NCBI GenBank assembly: GCA_005885245.1
Contig: VAWR01000106.1
Location: forward strand, 1-37,772
Direction: 5' to 3'
DNA from: Actinomycetota bacterium
GTDB lineage: Bacteria; Actinomycetota; Thermoleophilia; Gaiellales; Gaiellaceae
DNA: 37,772 nucleotides
A program made the translations under genes and the position numbers. Positions 7,326-27,192 of the stretch are shown here, piece by piece (the stretch's first letter is position 1; every line of letters starts with the position of its first letter). Below the pieces are notes generated by a model. It was not told the DNA's origin and ran no database searches. It saw nothing but the letters and a program-made list of their open reading frames with translations.

Positions 7326-7331
7326 CGGCCT

Positions 7332-7770
7332 CGCGGCGAAAGCTGCGCTTTCGCCGCGATCTAAGGTACGCCGCATTCGCGGGGAACGTGCGCGGGCGGA
7401 GCCCGCGCACTTCTCTGGTGTTGGTGCTGGGCGGTTGTTCTCGAACCGTGCGGGCACGGGCGCCGGAGGCGTCCGCGCCCGCATCAGTCCGCCTGCGGCT
7501 AAGCCCGGCTTCGCCTGGTCTTAGCCTCCGGCCCTGATCTTGCTGGTGAACGCGCGTTCACCAGCAGCACCGAGGGCCGGAGCGTAGACCAGGCGCAGCC
7601 GGGCTACGAGGAGGCCGACCTCACACGGGCGGGGACGCCGCCGGCGCCGCCGCCCGCGGACCACTTCAAGCGGCAAGAACAAACCCGAAAGGGAGCGCAC
7701 GGGCTTCGCCCGTGCGCGTTCCGCGCGAAGCGCCGTACCCAAACCGCGCGAAAGCGAAGCTTTCGCGCGG
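7332..7770. repeat. Element A copy 1: 439-bp giant palindrome with nested hairpins
   Basis: A non-coding stretch built of mirror-ordered hairpins. Left arm: a 12-bp stem with TGC loop (7332-7358), the end motif GGTACGCCGCATTCGCG (7365-7381), a 10-bp stem GTGCGCGGGC with GGA loop (7388-7410), a 15-bp stem (7450-7482), and an arm starting GCCCGGCTTCGCCTGGTC (7503-7534). Centre: a perfect 26-bp palindrome (7541-7566). Right arm in reverse order: 7574-7604, 7626-7656, 7695-7717, the end motif 7717-7739, and a 12-bp stem with GAA loop (7744-7770). Copy 2 is at 13763-14152. It explains all of the gap between the genes ending at 7325 and starting at 7862 except the last 90 bases. Confidence 0.85.
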
Positions 7771-7828
7771 TCATACGGAATTCATGCCAAGGGGGGCACC
7801 GTCCGCATTCCGGGGGTTCCGATGTTCT

Positions 7829-10384: not shown

Positions 10385-12115
10385 GTGAACGCCGCCGGAC
10401 TTCGCACGCTGCCGCTCGCGCGCGTGTACCTCGTCGCGGGCCTCATGGCCACTGGGCTGTACTTCGTCCTGCCGTGGAACTCGTTTTCGCAGGAGCTTCT
10501 CTACGACGCAATCGGTGCTTGCTCCGCGGTGGTCGTGGTGCTCGGGGCACGCATCAACCGGCCGCGGCAGATGCTGCCCTGGTATCTCTTCGGCGCAGGC
10601 CTGCTCGCTTTCAGCCTCGGCGACGTCGTCTTCAACCTCTACGCGCAGGTCTGGCACCGCGATCCGCCGGTGCCGTCCGTCGCGGACCTCTTCTATCTCG
10701 CCGGCTATCCGTTCCTGGCCGCCGGTCTGGTGGCACTCGTGTTGCGGATGCGGCGGCAGGACCGGCGGTTCGGTCTTCTCGATGCCGCGCTTCTGACCGT
10801 GGCCTTCGCGCTCTGCCAGTGGGTGTTCGTGATGAGGGGCGTCGCCAAGGGTTCGGCCTCCGGGACCGATCGAGCCGTGGCTCTGTCGTACCCGGTCATG
10901 GACATCGTCTTGCTCGCCGCGCTGGTCTTCTTTGCAATGACCCCGGCCTGGCGTACGGCCGCCTACCGGTATCTCGGCCTCAGCCTCGCGCTGATGCTTT
11001 TCGGGGACGAGGTCTACGGAGTGTCCCCGAACTCATATGCCGGGGCGTCCTGGCTCGACGCGGCCTGGCTGCTGTCCTACCTGTTCTGGGCGGTCGCAGC
11101 GCTCAGCCCGTCGATGCGCTCGCTGTCCGAACGGCCGCGCCCGAGAACGCCTGGGCTGACCAGATCGAGACTCCTCGTTCTCGGTGCGGCGCTCGGCACT
11201 GCCCCGGCCGTGATCGTCGCTGAGCGCGCGCTCGGCAGAGGAGTCGATGCGGACGCCGTCGCGATCGGAGCGACGGTCCTGTCGGCCCTGGTGCTTGCGC
11301 GCCTCGCCGGCATGGTCCGATCGCTCGATCGGCTGCGCGAGCGCGAACGCGTCGCGCGGGCGGAGGCCGAGTCGGCGCACCATCAGCTTGCCCTACGGAA
11401 CGAGCAGCTACTCGAGGCCGATCGCCTCAAGGACGAGTTCGTCGCGCTCATCTCGCACGATCTCCGTACTCCCTTGACTTCGATCATGGGCTATCTCGAG
11501 CTCACGCTCGGGGACGGGAACCTGACCGACGACCAGCGTGGCTATCTCGATGTCGTCGACCGGAATGCGGACCGTCTGCTCAGGCTCGTCAACGACCTCC
11601 TGTTCGTCGCCCGCCTCGAAGCCGGCCAGCTCGACCTCCATCCGAGCGAGCTCGATCTCGCCGCGATCGTCCGGCAGTCCGTGAGCGAGGCAGAGCCGAG
11701 GGCTGCTGCGAAGCGGATCGCTCTGACCTGCAACGCCGCCGAGCTGCCTGTGGTGCGGGCCGACAAGGGCCGTATCTTCCAGCTCCTCGACAACCTCGTC
11801 TCGAACGCGATCAAGTTCACCCCCGAAGGCGGCGACATCCAGGTCTCGGTCGCGCGGGTGAACGGCGCCGTGCAGCTCGAGGTCGCGGATACCGGCATCG
11901 GCATCGACTCGACGGAACAACTGCAGCTGTTCGAACGGTTCTTCCGCGCCTCGACTGCTGCGCAGCGCCAGATCCCCGGGACCGGACTGGGCCTCTACAT
12001 CGCCCGGGCGATCGTCGAAGCGCACGGCGGCTCGATCTCGGTCGACAGCGAGCTGGGCCGGGGAACCTCGTTCCTGATCGACCTACCCCTGTCCTCGGAG
12101 GCGGTGACGGCGTGA
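10385..12115 (+). CDS. Membrane sensor histidine kinase with about ten N-terminal TM helices
   Basis: A 576-residue kinase. Residues 1-310 hold about ten hydrophobic helices with the FVLPWNSFSQELLYDAIG and PSVADLFYLAGYPFLAAGL segments. From memory, this integral membrane sensor type also occurs in front of GGDEF/EAL enzymes in related actinobacteria. A short coiled coil leads to the HisKA domain, with phospho-acceptor His358 in ISHDLRTPLTSIMGYLEL. The HATPase follows with N box (NLVSNAIKFTPEGG), G1 (VADTGIGID), F box (LFERFF) and G2 (GTGLGLYIARAIV). All blocks are intact, so it should be active. The GTG start at 10385 follows AGAGAG. The single-domain receiver at 12300 is the natural partner, now separated from it by element B. 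Confidence 0.92.
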   Translation: MNAAGLRTLPLARVYLVAGLMATGLYFVLPWNSFSQELLYDAIGACSAVVVVLGARINRPRQMLPWYLFGAGLLAFSLGDVVFNLYAQVWHRDPPVPSVADLFYLAGYPFLAAGLVALVLRMRRQDRRFGLLDAALLTVAFALCQWVFVMRGVAKGSASGTDRAVALSYPVMDIVLLAALVFFAMTPAWRTAAYRYLGLSLALMLFGDEVYGVSPNSYAGASWLDAAWLLSYLFWAVAALSPSMRSLSERPRPRTPGLTRSRLLVLGAALGTAPAVIVAERALGRGVDADAVAIGATVLSALVLARLAGMVRSLDRLRERERVARAEAESAHHQLALRNEQLLEADRLKDEFVALISHDLRTPLTSIMGYLELTLGDGNLTDDQRGYLDVVDRNADRLLRLVNDLLFVARLEAGQLDLHPSELDLAAIVRQSVSEAEPRAAAKRIALTCNAAELPVVRADKGRIFQLLDNLVSNAIKFTPEGGDIQVSVARVNGAVQLEVADTGIGIDSTEQLQLFERFFRASTAAQRQIPGTGLGLYIARAIVEAHGGSISVDSELGRGTSFLIDLPLSSEAVTA

Positions 12116-12306
12116 GCGTCGCTCGCCTTCGGCTCGCTCCCGTGAGGGAAACCATGTTTCCCTCACGAGCTCCCTTCTTCAGGTGTCGCTTCCGCCCACG
12201 CGCCGCCGAGATCGCCGCGTGTGCGGAGGAGCAGGAAGGGGGAAACCTCACGGTTTCGCCCGACGCCCCTTCCCTCGCTCATCGGGCCGAGGCTGCCCAG
12301 TGAGCG
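12112..12306. repeat. Element B copy 1 at the kinase/receiver junction, flanked by GTGAGCG direct repeats
   Basis: GTGAGCG occurs at 12112-12118, holding the kinase stop TGA, and again at 12300-12306, holding the receiver start GTG. Between them are a perfect 12-bp hairpin with CAT loop (12141-12167; arm CGTGAGGGAAAC) and a second hairpin, GAAACC-TCAC-GGTTTC (12242-12257, extended by GGG/CCC). Deleting one repeat plus the interior would recreate a 4-base GTGA overlap of the two genes. Copy 2 at 27040-27192 shares its beginning, both hairpins and its end. Unlike copy 2, it has about 40 extra bases between the hairpins. Confidence 0.85.
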
Positions 12307-13424: not shown

Positions 13425-13751
13425 ATGGCACGGATCCTGATCAGCGAGCCCCATCCCGACCTCAGGGTCCTGCTCGAGGCGATCGTCAGGAGAGCCGGTC
13501 ACGAACCGGTGGGCCACGGCGAGCTGGCCTTGGACGAAGCGCCCGCGGTGATGATCCTCGAGCCGGCCTCTGCGGCCGACCTGGCAGCGGCAGCCGGGCT
13601 TCGGCGCCGGCTCGAGGATCTTCCGATCATCTGCACGAGCATCCTGCCGCCGAGCGAGCACACACGCGCCCTCGGGCCGGTGGCGTATCTGCTGAAGCCG
13701 TTTCGGGTCGTCGAGCTCGAGACAGCGATCGCCTCGGCGCTCGCGGCGTAG
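13425..13751 (+). CDS. Degenerate (pseudo-)receiver domain protein
   Basis: A 108-residue protein with a receiver-like layout: the first strand MARILISEPHPDLRVLLEAI, the helix pattern, TSILPPSEH at the switch position and YLLKPFRVVELE, with the conserved Lys91-Pro at the end. The acidic pair is reduced to one Glu (E8), and the phospho-acceptor Asp is replaced by Glu46 in AVMILEPAS. It therefore cannot be phosphorylated in the normal way, and Glu may mimic the phosphorylated state. It is divergent from the OmpR-type regulator. Its stop lies 11 bases before element A copy 2. Its partner is unknown. Confidence 0.7.
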   Translation: MARILISEPHPDLRVLLEAIVRRAGHEPVGHGELALDEAPAVMILEPASAADLAAAAGLRRRLEDLPIICTSILPPSEHTRALGPVAYLLKPFRVVELETAIASALAA

Positions 13752-13762
13752 CCGCGTAGCCG

Positions 13763-14152
13763 CGCGGCGAAAGCTGCGCTTTCGCCGCGATTGAGGTACG
13801 GCGCTTCGCGCGTAACGTGCGCGGGCGAAGCCCGCGCACTTTCATTGGTGTTGGTGCCTGCAGCTTGTTCGCTTCCGTGCGGGCACGGGCGCCGGAGGCG
13901 TCCGCGCCCGCATCGGTTCGCCTGCGGCTAAGCCCGGCTTCGCCTGGTCTTACCCTCCGGCCTTTGTGGTTCTGCTGGAAGCGCGCGTCCACCGACGCCA
14001 GAGCGGGCCGGAGCGTAGACCAGGCGCAGCCGGGCTACGAGGAGGCCGGACTCACTCGGGCGGCGACGCCTCCGGCGCCGCTGCCCGTGGACCGCGCGTT
14101 CCGCGCGAAGCGCCGTACCCAAATCCCGCGCGAAAGCGCAGCTTTCGCGCGG
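13763..14152. repeat. Element A copy 2: 390-bp giant palindrome between convergent genes
   Basis: It has the same order as copy 1. Left: a 12-bp hairpin (13763-13789), end motif GGTACGGCGCTTCGCGCG (13795-13812), a 10-bp hairpin with GAA loop (13817-13839), a 15-bp hairpin (13879-13911) and an inner arm (from about 13932). Right: an inner arm (about 14005-14034), a GC hairpin (about 14057-14087), the end motif 14097-14119 and a 12-bp hairpin with GCA loop (14126-14152). Its two end motifs are inverted repeats of each other. About 55 bases present in copy 1 are absent, including one right-arm hairpin. The last hairpin touches the stop codon of the AI-2E-type gene, so it can end both convergent transcripts. 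Confidence 0.85.
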
Positions 14153-15208
14153 CTAATTCTCCGCCTCCTTGGCGGGGAACAGGACCGCCGGTATGTCCTC
14201 GTCGGCCGGATCCTTGTCGCGAACGACGACGTCCACCAGCGTGACGAGGACGGCGACCAGCGGCACCGCGAGCACCACCGCAAATCCACCGAACAGGATT
14301 CCGACCGCGGTCACCGAGATCAGGACGAGCAGCGGCGACAGTCCGACCGCATCCCCGAGCACGCGCGGAACGATCAGATAGTCCTCGAGCAGCCGCACGA
14401 CGAAGACGCAGATCCCGGCCGCGAGCGCGACGTGCCAGGAGGACGTGAACCCGACGCCCACCGCCAGCGCGCCGGCCGCGATCGGTCCGATCACCGGCAC
14501 GATCTCGACGAGGCCGGCGAACGCGCCGACCAGGATGAAGTAGGGCTCGCCCACCGCCCAGAAAGCGAGGGTCAGCAACGTTCCGACCAGAACGATCAGC
14601 AGCGCCTGGCCGCGCACGAAGGCGCCGAGCTTCAGGTCGATCAGGTCCCACGTGTCGCGCACCTTCTTCCGTCTGGGGCGAGGTAACAGAGAGGTGACGA
14701 AGGCGACCGCGCGTTCCCGCTCGAAGATCCAGTACGCGGCCGTCGAGAGCACGAAGAACAGGCCGAGGATCGCCTCGAAGACCTTGACGGTCACCTCCAC
14801 GGCCGGATGCAACAGCGCACCAGCCTTCGGCACCTCGCGCAGGCGCTTGTCGATCGCCGTGAGGACCTCGTGCTTGATCCCCGTCGATGTCTTCGCCTCG
14901 CGATGGATCTGCGCCTTGGTATCGGTACCCAGGGCGTTCTGGATCTGGTCGATCGCGCGCGGTACGACGATCCAGAGGAAGAGCGTTAACAGAGCTGCAA
15001 GGGCGAGGTAGTGGACCAACAGCCCGACTCCTCGCGGCAAGCCGGCCCGATTGAGCCGGTCGATGCCCGGGCGCATGGCGGCAGCGAGGATGAAGCCGAG
15101 GAAGACGAGCGCCAGCACGAGCTTCAGCTTCCAGAGCGCCAGGACGGTCGCGACGATCGCGATCACGACCAGCGTCGAGAGCGCCACACGCTTCGCAGAT
15201 TCCGCCAT
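14153..15208 (-). CDS. AI-2E family transporter (UPF0118/PerM type)
   Basis: A 351-residue polytopic membrane protein with the family layout. Two N-terminal helix pairs (LSTLVVIAIVATVLALWKLK; LVFLGFILAAAMRPGIDRLN) are followed by a long soluble segment (IDQIQNALGTDTKAQIHREA and so on). Five or more C-terminal helices include LLTLAFWAVGEPYFILVGAF and GLVEIVPVIGPIAAGALAVG, the conserved Pro-Gly-rich block. Members export diverse small molecules or ions; the AI-2 name is historical. ATG at 15208 (MAESAKRVALS) is chosen because upstream codons run through a palindrome. It diverges from the PH-like gene at 15250. Confidence 0.88.
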   Translation of the reverse strand: MAESAKRVALSTLVVIAIVATVLALWKLKLVLALVFLGFILAAAMRPGIDRLNRAGLPRGVGLLVHYLALAALLTLFLWIVVPRAIDQIQNALGTDTKAQIHREAKTSTGIKHEVLTAIDKRLREVPKAGALLHPAVEVTVKVFEAILGLFFVLSTAAYWIFERERAVAFVTSLLPRPRRKKVRDTWDLIDLKLGAFVRGQALLIVLVGTLLTLAFWAVGEPYFILVGAFAGLVEIVPVIGPIAAGALAVGVGFTSSWHVALAAGICVFVVRLLEDYLIVPRVLGDAVGLSPLLVLISVTAVGILFGGFAVVLAVPLVAVLVTLVDVVVRDKDPADEDIPAVLFPAKEAEN

Positions 15209-15218
15209 GACCAGGGAT

Positions 15219-15238
15219 CTTTCGCCGCTCGGCGAAAG
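15219..15238. promoter_or_regulatory. Operator-like palindrome between divergent genes
   Basis: CTTTCGCCG-CT-CGGCGAAAG is a perfect 9-bp inverted repeat centred in the 41-bp gap between start codons 15208 and 15250. It could be a dimeric repressor site or a hairpin. It has the same core as the outer hairpin of element A but with the arms in the opposite order, so it may be a remnant of that family. Confidence 0.4.
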
Positions 15239-15249
15239 CGGCAAACGCG

Positions 15250-15675
15250 ATGGTGACTGCCGGCTGGGAACGAATCTGCCTCGATCAGCGGCGACATGTC
15301 GTCGTGCTCGCGGGTCCATTGCTGCGTGCGTCCGGGCTCGCGGTCGTGGGAATCGGGTGCATGGCCGTCGGCTGGCCGGCCTCGATCGCAGGTGTGATCC
15401 TGCAAACGCTCGCGGCTGCGATCGCCCTGCGCGCCGTGTGGACCTGGGAGCGGACGCGTGTCGTCCTGACGACCGAGAAGCTGTTCGTCGTGCACGGAAC
15501 GTTGCGTCGACGGGCCGCCGCAGTCAGGCTATCGCGCCTCGGCGCGGTCGAGATCGAGCAAGGGCTCGCAGGGCGCCTCCTCGGGTACGGGACGATCGTC
15601 GCCGGCGATCTGGAGATCACCTACGTGCCGGAGCCTCGCCGCGTCTACGGCCTCGTCGAGCGTCTCGACCGCTGA
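15250..15675 (+). CDS. Membrane protein with bacterial PH (YdbS-like) domain
   Basis: A 141-residue protein with two hydrophobic helices (about 18-62: VVVLAGPLLRASGLAVVGIG; ASIAGVILQTLAAAIALRAV). A compact beta-rich domain follows with TRVVLTTEKLFVVHGTLRRR and AVRLSRLGAVEIEQGLAGRL, the pattern of YdbS/bPH2 domains (TEKRLIVRRG...I..V..I...Q...). Such proteins sit at the inner membrane face and their role is poorly known. It lies upstream of an ABC exporter with its own likely promoter, 21 bases away. The start is ATG 15250. Confidence 0.7.
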   Translation: MVTAGWERICLDQRRHVVVLAGPLLRASGLAVVGIGCMAVGWPASIAGVILQTLAAAIALRAVWTWERTRVVLTTEKLFVVHGTLRRRAAAVRLSRLGAVEIEQGLAGRLLGYGTIVAGDLEITYVPEPRRVYGLVERLDR

Positions 15676-22496: not shown

Positions 22497-23245
22497 CGTG
22501 CCGTCGCCTCGCTGTGATCGCCGCGGCGGGCGAGGAGTCCCTCGGGGGAAACCTCCCGGTTTCCCCCTTCCCCTTCCACATGCGCGCGGAGCTGCGCTGT
22601 CGCGCGCGCCAGCATGTCGTACAGGGGCTCGAGCTCAGGTCTGGCAGCGCGAATCGCCTGCCGGTGAGCCTCGACGGTCGACCAGTCACCGCGCTCGATC
22701 GGCCCCGTCAGCTCGAAGCCGTTGTCGATCGTCCGCCGCATGAGCGGAACGAGCGCTTCGGAGGGAGCGCCGGCGGCGCGGAACAGCTCAGCGGCGACCT
22801 GGTGAAGCGTGACGAGGTAGTTCGACGCGATCGCAGCGCCCGCGTGGTAGAGCGGCCGGACTTCGTCCGCCAACTCGAATGGTCGGAGTCCGAGCGTCTC
22901 CGCGAGCCAGAACCCGGCGCGCCGCGCTTCTTCGGACTCGCTCGTGACGGCTGCCCAGGCGCCGTCGAGCTGCTCTGGTCCCCGCGCGCGCGTGAACGTC
23001 TGCAGTGGATGGACGCCGAAGCGCCGCCGGTGCGGCTCCAGTGCAGCCAGCGGCGTGGCGCCCGAGACGTGCGCAACCCAGGGCCCGGGCTCGACCTCGG
23101 CGGCGACCTCGGCGATCGCCTGGTCGGGCACACACAGCAGGACGAGGCCGGCAGGTTCACCGGCGGCGACGCCCCGCTCGCTCAGGCGAGCAGAGACGGC
23201 CGAGCCGACGCGGCCGGAACCGATGACTCTGACACTCTCGAACAC
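22493..23245 (-). CDS. Rossmann-fold DUF2520 protein, candidate ketopantoate-reductase-like enzyme
   Basis: A 250-residue protein beginning with an NAD(P)-binding glycine motif (VRVIGSGRVGSAVSARL). A short Rossmann half is followed by HVSGATPLAALEPH and GVHPLQTF, then a helical C-terminal domain (YHAGAAIASNYLVTLHQVAA) of the DUF2520/COG5495 type. It resembles ketopantoate reductase and 6-phosphogluconate dehydrogenase relatives. It heads the panC-panB operon, and no recognised panE is present, so ketopantoate reduction is a plausible but unproven role. GTG 23245 follows GGAGCTAGGA. The last roughly 26 residues (including GEGGNREVSPEG) are encoded by a hairpin of the element B family and look like an added tail. 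Confidence 0.8.
   Translation of the reverse strand: MFESVRVIGSGRVGSAVSARLSERGVAAGEPAGLVLLCVPDQAIAEVAAEVEPGPWVAHVSGATPLAALEPHRRRFGVHPLQTFTRARGPEQLDGAWAAVTSESEEARRAGFWLAETLGLRPFELADEVRPLYHAGAAIASNYLVTLHQVAAELFRAAGAPSEALVPLMRRTIDNGFELTGPIERGDWSTVEAHRQAIRAARPELEPLYDMLARATAQLRAHVEGEGGNREVSPEGLLARRGDHSEATAR
22544..22567. repeat. Element B-type hairpin inside the end of the DUF2520 gene
   Basis: GGGGGAAACC-TCCC-GGTTTCCCCC is a perfect 10-bp stem with a 4-base loop. It is the same hairpin class as the second hairpin of element B copies 1 and 2 (GAAACC-TCAC-GGTTTC and GGAACC-TCCC-GGTTCC). It lies about 50 bases before the stop/start overlap with panC and is read in frame. Confidence 0.7.
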
Positions 23246-26475: not shown

Positions 26476-27043
26476 CGTCGCGACGAGCGCGCTCGTCTCC
26501 GACGGCGAGGTGCTCGGCGAGCGGGTTTCGACCGCCGTCACCTTGCTCGAGGACCTCGATGCGCTGCTTCGACAGGCAGGGACCCAGACGCGGCAGGTGG
26601 AAGGGCTCGCGGTCGGGATCGGGCCGGGCAGCTTCACGGGGATCCGCATCGGGCTGGCGACGGCGCGTGGGCTCGCACTCGCGCTCGGGACGCCCGCTGC
26701 CGGCGTCTCCACGCTTGCGGCGCTCGCCGCCGGGGCTCCGCGCGCCGTTCCCGTCATCGATGCGCGGCGCGGAGAGGTCTTCGTCCTGCAGGAGGAACCG
26801 CGCGTGCTCGTGCCAGGCGCGTTCCGGCCGGCACCGGGGACGCTCTGCGTCGGCAGCGGGGCCGTCCGGTACCGGTCCGTGCTCGAAGCGGCCGGGGCCG
26901 AGATACCGCCCGACCGTGACGAGCGGCACCTGCCGCGGGCCCGTTTTCATGCGGCGCTCGCGCGAAACTTCGGACCGGCGGAGGCGCTCACGCCGCTGTA
27001 CCTACGGATCCCCGACGCTGATAGAACCCGAACACGGGCATGA
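26444..27043 (+). CDS. tsaB: t6A biosynthesis protein TsaB
   Basis: A 199-residue protein of the ASKHA fold: MLILAFDTATDVATSALVSD (phosphate-1-like loop), then GIGPGSFTGIRIGLATARGL, the hallmark TsaB motif, and GTPAAGVSTLAAL. It lacks the metal-binding HxxxH of TsaD and serves as its platform partner. The ATG at 26444 overlaps the end of tsaE. The stop lies inside the ATGAGCG repeat that flanks element B copy 2, so without that element tsaB and rimI would overlap by 4 bases. The C-terminus is somewhat short but complete. Confidence 0.93.
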   Translation: MLILAFDTATDVATSALVSDGEVLGERVSTAVTLLEDLDALLRQAGTQTRQVEGLAVGIGPGSFTGIRIGLATARGLALALGTPAAGVSTLAALAAGAPRAVPVIDARRGEVFVLQEEPRVLVPGAFRPAPGTLCVGSGAVRYRSVLEAAGAEIPPDRDERHLPRARFHAALARNFGPAEALTPLYLRIPDADRTRTRA

Positions 27044-27192
27044 GCGTCGCTCGCTTTCAGCTGGCTCCCGCGGGGGAAACCATGTTTCCCCCACGAGCCC
27101 CCTTCTTTGATGTACGGCCGGTGGAACCTCCCGGTTCCCCCGGCCGGCCCGCCCCCTCCCCCGCTCGTTGGGCAGAGGTTGCCCAATGAGCG
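27040..27192. repeat. Element B copy 2 at the tsaB/rimI junction, flanked by ATGAGCG direct repeats
   Basis: ATGAGCG at 27040-27046 (with the tsaB stop) and 27186-27192 (with the rimI start) flank the element. The interior starts TCGCTCGC, as in copy 1. It has a 9-bp hairpin GGGGGAAAC-CAT-GTTTCCCCC (27072-27092) followed by CCCTTCTT. It then has a 13-bp interrupted stem, GGCCGG-T-GGAACC with loop TCCC (27116-27145). It ends in GAGGTTGCCCA, matching GAGGCTGCCCA of copy 1. Collapsing it to one repeat restores the ATGA overlap. Confidence 0.85.

Follow-up and report, generated by a model that had tools for sequence, protein, structure and literature searches.

The usual view is that the ends of bacterial genes evolve in situ. 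In hairpin-cluster terminators, several hairpins follow one another after a stop codon. Enterobacterial intergenic repeat units such as ERIC are imperfect palindromes of 100 to 170 bp that lie between genes and are non-coding; we know of no enzyme of their own. According to the accessible text of PMC3733652, REP/BIME repeats are intergenic palindromes close to gene 3' ends that often form inverted pairs between convergent genes, and REP ends of the GTAG family often supply the TAG stop codon. In Escherichia coli, REPs close to a stop codon can influence translation, as described in the accessible part of PMC12306157.

Here, we analyzed a 37,772-nucleotide stretch of DNA (the window) from an Actinomycetota bacterium that carries a repeat, element A, at a convergent gene pair. 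The repeat unit resembles REP repeats in place and habit and differs from them in size, tag, and transposase. Like REP/BIME as described in the accessible text of PMC3733652, it is palindromic, intergenic, repeated, located at gene 3' ends, and found as inverted pairs between convergent genes. Unlike REP/BIME, which span 20 to 40 bp and occur in hundreds of copies, the unit is ~200 bp long, has five different hairpins in a fixed order, and occurs in tens of copies; by inspection, our alignment (A1) has no conserved GTAG or CGTC columns beside the first hairpin (HP1), and we found no RAYT (REP-associated tyrosine transposase) gene flanked by the repeat at the loci examined. While GTAG REPs often supply a TAG, here the stop codon is the host gene's own at the one site where this could be tested. 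The unit also differs from ERIC-type units, with which it was compared by description rather than by sequence, in its modular build of five hairpins and its pairing with the stop codon, and from hairpin-cluster terminators in that the hairpins belong to a homologous element that is dispersed and was apparently gained at new gene ends. We found no account of such a five-hairpin unit in the literature searched, in which coverage of subscription journals was slight.

RESULTS

Element A consists of two units arranged head to head

Positions 13763 to 14152 of the window form a non-coding quasi-palindrome that takes up the space separating two convergent genes (Table 1) and that, folded as single-stranded DNA, has a z score of −13 relative to shuffles. 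Element A is two ~200-bp units head to head. The TAG stop codon of the upstream gene (13749-13751) is separated by 11 bases from HP1 of the left unit, and HP1 of the right unit abuts the opposing stop codon (CTA, 14153-14155); the coordinates, spacing, and contact given in the initial annotation are all correct on the sequence. The upstream gene has no Pfam match, and the C terminus of its product resembles a receiver domain as judged by eye only.

This copy of element A aligns with copy 1 in blocks of 87 to 97% identity. Its right unit has 148 nt compared with ~200 nt for a complete unit; the ~55 bases reported as missing relative to copy 1, including a 10-bp hairpin, correspond to HP3 and its linker. 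The idea that hairpins are gained or lost as modules is supported for loss. The GGTACGG motif had been taken to define the true ends of the element; instead, the outer hairpins are the ends, and the motif lies just inside them.

Table 1. Features at and around element A in the window
Feature	Coordinates	Strand	Basis
Upstream gene, ~108 aa	13424..13751	+	Codon-usage gene call
HP1, left unit (12-bp stem, 3-nt loop)	13763..13789	+	Sequence
Left unit, complete, five hairpins	13762..13962	+	Covariance model R1, 194 bits; covariation
Conserved linker GGTACG and HP2 (end motif GGTACGGCGCTTCGCGCG)	13795..13812	+	Sequence; alignment A1
HP3, 10-bp stem followed by T-rich TTTCATTG, terminator-like	13817..13839	+	
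HP4	13878..13912	+	Alignment A1, pair counts
HP5	13920..13961	+	Alignment A1, pair counts
Centre separating the two units	13963..14005	.	Lies between R1 model matches
Right unit, inverted, without HP3 and its linker	14006..14153	-	R1, 109 bits
GGTACG-HP2 motif, inverted copy	14102..14119	-	Sequence
HP1, right unit, directly after the opposing stop codon	14126..14152	-	Sequence
Opposing gene, AI-2E family transporter	14153..15319	-	Pfam PF01594, E 2e-40
Copy 1	7331..7771	.	R1 matches at 7331-7533 (+) and 7575-7771 (-)

The window holds other repeats. A second dispersed repeat at 12109-12179 and 27037-27107 (copies 89% identical) also begins at stop codons (TGA at 12113-12115 and 27041-27043) and contains the hairpin GTGAGGGAAAC-CAT-GTTTCCCTCAC. 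Related-looking GGGGGAAACC...GGTTTCCCCC hairpin sequences are present as inverted copies at 12234-12263 and 22542-22571.

The unit has a covarying five-hairpin structure

Aligned genus copies share one architecture: HP1, a linker ending in GGTACG, HP2, HP3 with its T-rich tail, HP4, and HP5. Alignment A1 contains 32 of 41 two-ended units, while nine with doubtful ends or that were not needed were omitted. On these 32 units, a 57-pair structure has 93.2% of its cells paired, and 31 pairs are changed on both sides; because this structure was drawn on one member, slid controls favour it. The whole-unit covariation score was 0.213 compared with 0.078 ± 0.005 for shuffled alignments, and none of 500 shuffles reached it. 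Kinship of the sequences can raise such scores above shuffles; the pair and type counts were also far above those of shuffles. When HP1 was considered separately, 50 distinct arm pairs had complementary bases at 291 of their 350 arm positions compared with 187 ± 6.7 after shuffling. On the outward strand, HP1 loops read G-N-A or G-N-N-A in 68 of 86 rows, some of which are the palindrome read again from the reverse strand. Loops of this type are very stable in DNA.

Two remnants, L376 (G003:C371) and L389 (G003:C71), lack HP1 and keep HP2 or HP3 directly after a stop codon. These remnants represent decay by module.

The unit is dispersed within one family

In the 3.2-Mb draft genome, we counted 23 occurrences of the HP1 core CGAAAGC-N3-4-GCTTTCG, every one at an element end, and none of the reversed control pattern. 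By DNA search, the element is present at ~16 places in this genome. The original description of 13763-14152 as the second copy of a dispersed element situated exactly at gene ends is supported. Contigs C60 and C180 share a 40-bp flank and possibly represent one place. Five contigs of the genome (C60, C139, C180, C194, and C210) have a terminus within the element or close to it; assembly of the draft was probably interrupted there, so that the number of copies counted is a minimum.

A covariance model built from the aligned units had matches at E ≤ 0.001 in all 10 genomes of the genus. Across the order, it matched 27 of 129 genomes, all within one family, and across the class 29 of 399, of which 26 belong to that family and three weak ones to another. 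Because plain DNA comparison detected little beyond the genus while the model matched other genera, the structure reaches further than the sequence. In an exact 17-mer scan of named genomes, the matches listed were mostly due to chance. Rfam 15 gave no match in the window, and the best match on six loci was Yfr1 with an E value of 0.5, under the gathering score.

Filled and empty sites occur among relatives

The initial annotation proposed a comparison with orthologous loci for an empty site and a target duplication, and held that the element's presence at the same place in all distant relatives would speak for an old fixed structure. Seven relatives were informative in that the 3' end of a clear transporter ortholog could be seen; in G007, a contig end truncates the locus, and in G006, a clear transporter ortholog is lacking. 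In six of the seven (G001, G002, G003, G004, G005, and G009), the element is absent, and the stop codons overlap, abut, or lie at most ~26 bp apart. The seventh, G008, has a single unit after the transporter stop codon and a different sequence beyond it. The empty site was thus found, and the element is not carried by all relatives at this locus. With six of seven informative relatives empty, the element was probably gained here, or was cleanly lost several times. No clear direct repeat that would indicate a target duplication was seen at the one site with empty orthologs that was compared, where the relatives are too diverged.

Among other loci, 17 groups are orthologous between species, with many sites common to two to four species; groups were joined by flank comparison, except that L256 and L236 were joined by eye, and one survey of genus loci omitted 11 of 76. 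At the iron-sulphur-assembly gene (PF01521), the site is filled in 3 of 10 genomes and empty in 7. The gene whose protein ends in PAGGDGGV has a unit or a remnant in all seven clear orthologs; this is the pattern that the initial annotation had named as speaking for an old fixed structure. These comparisons indicate that mobility and long retention both occur.

Units are anchored at stop codons

To describe gene context, we used the 85 of 167 model matches that scored at least 45 bits, 83 of which have a 5'-side gene call based on a home-made codon-usage score. A same-strand stop codon precedes 61 of these 83 units, while the 5' end of the remaining 22 faces the start of a divergent gene. Relative to the first model position, the end of the stop codon falls between −11 and +6 in 43 of the 61 units, and exactly at +1 in 11. 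Of 22 units from another genus of the family, 20 are preceded by a same-strand stop codon, at an offset of −5 to +8 in 18 cases. In tandem gaps in the genus, 15 units are sense and 7 antisense, a bias that is not significant (p 0.13).

The stop codon lies wholly inside the HP1 stem region in 11 units, and 28 of its 33 bases are paired in these units compared with 11.1 ± 2.9 after shuffling (maximum of 23 in 5000 shuffles). At the iron-sulphur-assembly gene, the protein end GCGSGCS is common to all ten genomes with or without the unit, so that the stop codon is the gene's own at this one testable site. Two of the three filled genomes pair TAG with CTA there, and the third pairs TGA with TCA. 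Similarly, a gene ending in EVLR has TAG/CTA in one species and TGA/TCA in another, and a length change is mirrored on the other arm.

Strong hairpins are present at the stop codons of 4 of 34 window genes, three of which are the element, and of 0 of 27 genes in a relative's contig. The suggestion that terminators were the insertion targets is contradicted by this rarity, by the empty sites, which are hairpin-free, and by the HP1 core, which occurs nowhere else in the genome. Rather, the hairpins come with the element, and the stop codon is the anchor.

A T-rich tail follows HP3 on the gene strand

HP3 has a 10-bp G+C stem, and its T-rich tail is kept even though the stem sequence changes. At least four T residues in the 8 nt after HP3 were found in 36 of 66 cases on the gene strand compared with 5 of 66 on the opposite strand; in the other genus, the counts were 7 of 12 and 0 of 12. 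At HP1, 15 of 78 reached this threshold, and HP1 itself is without a T-run. A directional T-rich tail retained as the stem varies is as expected of an intrinsic terminator. A terminator scan found HP3 of the left unit, yet with 1 site compared with 0.7 ± 1.0 in shuffles there was no excess. Based on these sequence features, the unit is probably a portable terminator module. Since the right unit of this copy of element A has no HP3, the transporter gene lacks the proposed stop.

Stems change on both arms

Template switching makes and repairs hairpins, as set out in the accessible part of PMC8794818. We compared HP1 in 28 ortholog pairs, in which comparisons within a group are not independent and from which one ortholog with a changed core was omitted. 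Both arms were changed at 36 positions, 29 of which are Watson-Crick in both species, and one arm at 24; this excess of both-arm changes fits template switching at the DNA level. The stems resemble the template-switch hairpins in the accessible text of PMC8794818 in being perfect via both-arm changes and in having a bulge or insertion copied across. They differ from the RNA genes in that text in that one arm is partly protein-coding and bears the stop codon.

Over 100 units, mismatches were balanced overall (120 G.U and 109 A.C), whereas 19 tRNAs from the studied loci had 23 G.U and 0 A.C. The lack of an overall strand bias, unlike in tRNAs, fits upkeep of a palindrome at the DNA level. An equal count could also arise from selection acting on both strands, and individual helices depart from the balance in opposite directions (G.U and A.C of 6 and 23 in HP3, and 56 and 21 in HP4). 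The counts also split by gene context, with 21 and 18 in tandem gaps and a lean to G.U in convergent gaps (42 and 20). Because of these splits, we do not claim a DNA-level structure as proven.

No link between PF01797 genes and the element was seen at the loci examined

PF01797 transposase genes are present in 9 of the 10 genus genomes. None of the 19 PF01797 loci examined of 37 listed has an element-end hairpin; two of the 19 have a fuzzy match to the end motif with the hairpin absent. Across genomes, the number of element copies does not follow the number of PF01797 genes (rho −0.02). On these grounds, a RAYT is not supported as the mover, and no transposase for the element was found at the loci analyzed.

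At three PF01797 loci, L287 (G000:C42), L293 (G009:C50), and L298 (G008:C19), a different hairpin family was observed, with the sequences GGTGTC...GACACC or GTACCGGTGCC...GGCACCGGTAC. These hairpins are possibly the REPs of RAYT-like genes.

DISCUSSION

In our view, element A is a dispersed repeat, non-coding and specific to its lineage, that acts as a portable 3'-end module, with one unit serving each convergent gene; we give this reading about an even chance of being right. The same data could be read as a vertically inherited, immobile structured RNA, i.e., a 3'-UTR element of particular genes whose absences are losses. The 17 site groups, many common to two to four species, the gene end filled in all seven clear orthologs, and the strong covariation of the stems are as this explanation has it. 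We nevertheless consider it unlikely, since six of seven relatives are empty at this site with stop codons abutting or close, and the 3 filled and 7 empty genomes at the iron-sulphur site call for several clean losses or independent gains. In addition, the two Pfam matches among five flanking proteins scanned belong to unrelated families, and the mismatches lack the overall strand bias of tRNAs. An artefact of assembly or binning, which a draft assembly with several copies at contig ends might bring to mind, deserves almost no weight because the copy in the window is internal to a contig of 51.6 kb and the assemblies of other species have the unit at orthologous sites.

Two known classes of mobile repeat were also weighed. 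A classical MITE derives from a DDE transposon by deletion and has terminal inverted repeats and a target duplication; inverted ends, dispersed copies, and empty sites are all present here. However, half-elements in which the second end is absent are common, the loci read include no ORF-carrying relative with the same ends, the one site compared has no clear target duplication, and conservation of a five-hairpin interior between genera is unexpected for a decaying derivative; we find this origin quite improbable. We consider it very improbable that the unit belongs to a REP/BIME family moved by RAYT. Its intergenic location at 3' ends, the inverted pairs, the terminal hairpins, and the PF01797 genes in nine of ten genomes recall such a family, but a length of ~200 bp is far above 20 to 40 bp, the alignment has no GTAG or CGTC tag by inspection, the 19 PF01797 loci examined lack the element-end hairpin, with a different hairpin family at some of them, and PF01797 counts do not track copy number.

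Under the reading as a portable 3'-end module, the unit would be moved in trans by some enzyme, and HP3 would end transcripts. The head-to-head pair may insulate the two convergent genes from each other. The stems, including the stop-pairing part of HP1, would be kept perfect largely at the DNA level by template switching, and broken copies would be removed by selection. A bolder version, which we put forward tentatively and think more likely wrong than right, is that of a self-tailoring 3'-end cassette: a mobile unit lands at a stop codon and refits the inner arm of HP1 to complement the last bases and the stop codon of the host gene, thereby providing a transferable terminator. The arm might be rewritten after insertion by template switching, or the target might be chosen by pairing, with DNA as the guide.

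Since few stop codons here have a strong hairpin of any other kind, the unit would supply a terminator where a gene has none. If true, genes could acquire terminators through a stop-codon module whose terminal hairpin is fitted to each of them, and ortholog pairs with joint changes in the stop codon and the opposite arm would be a natural test of the upkeep of hairpins by template switching.
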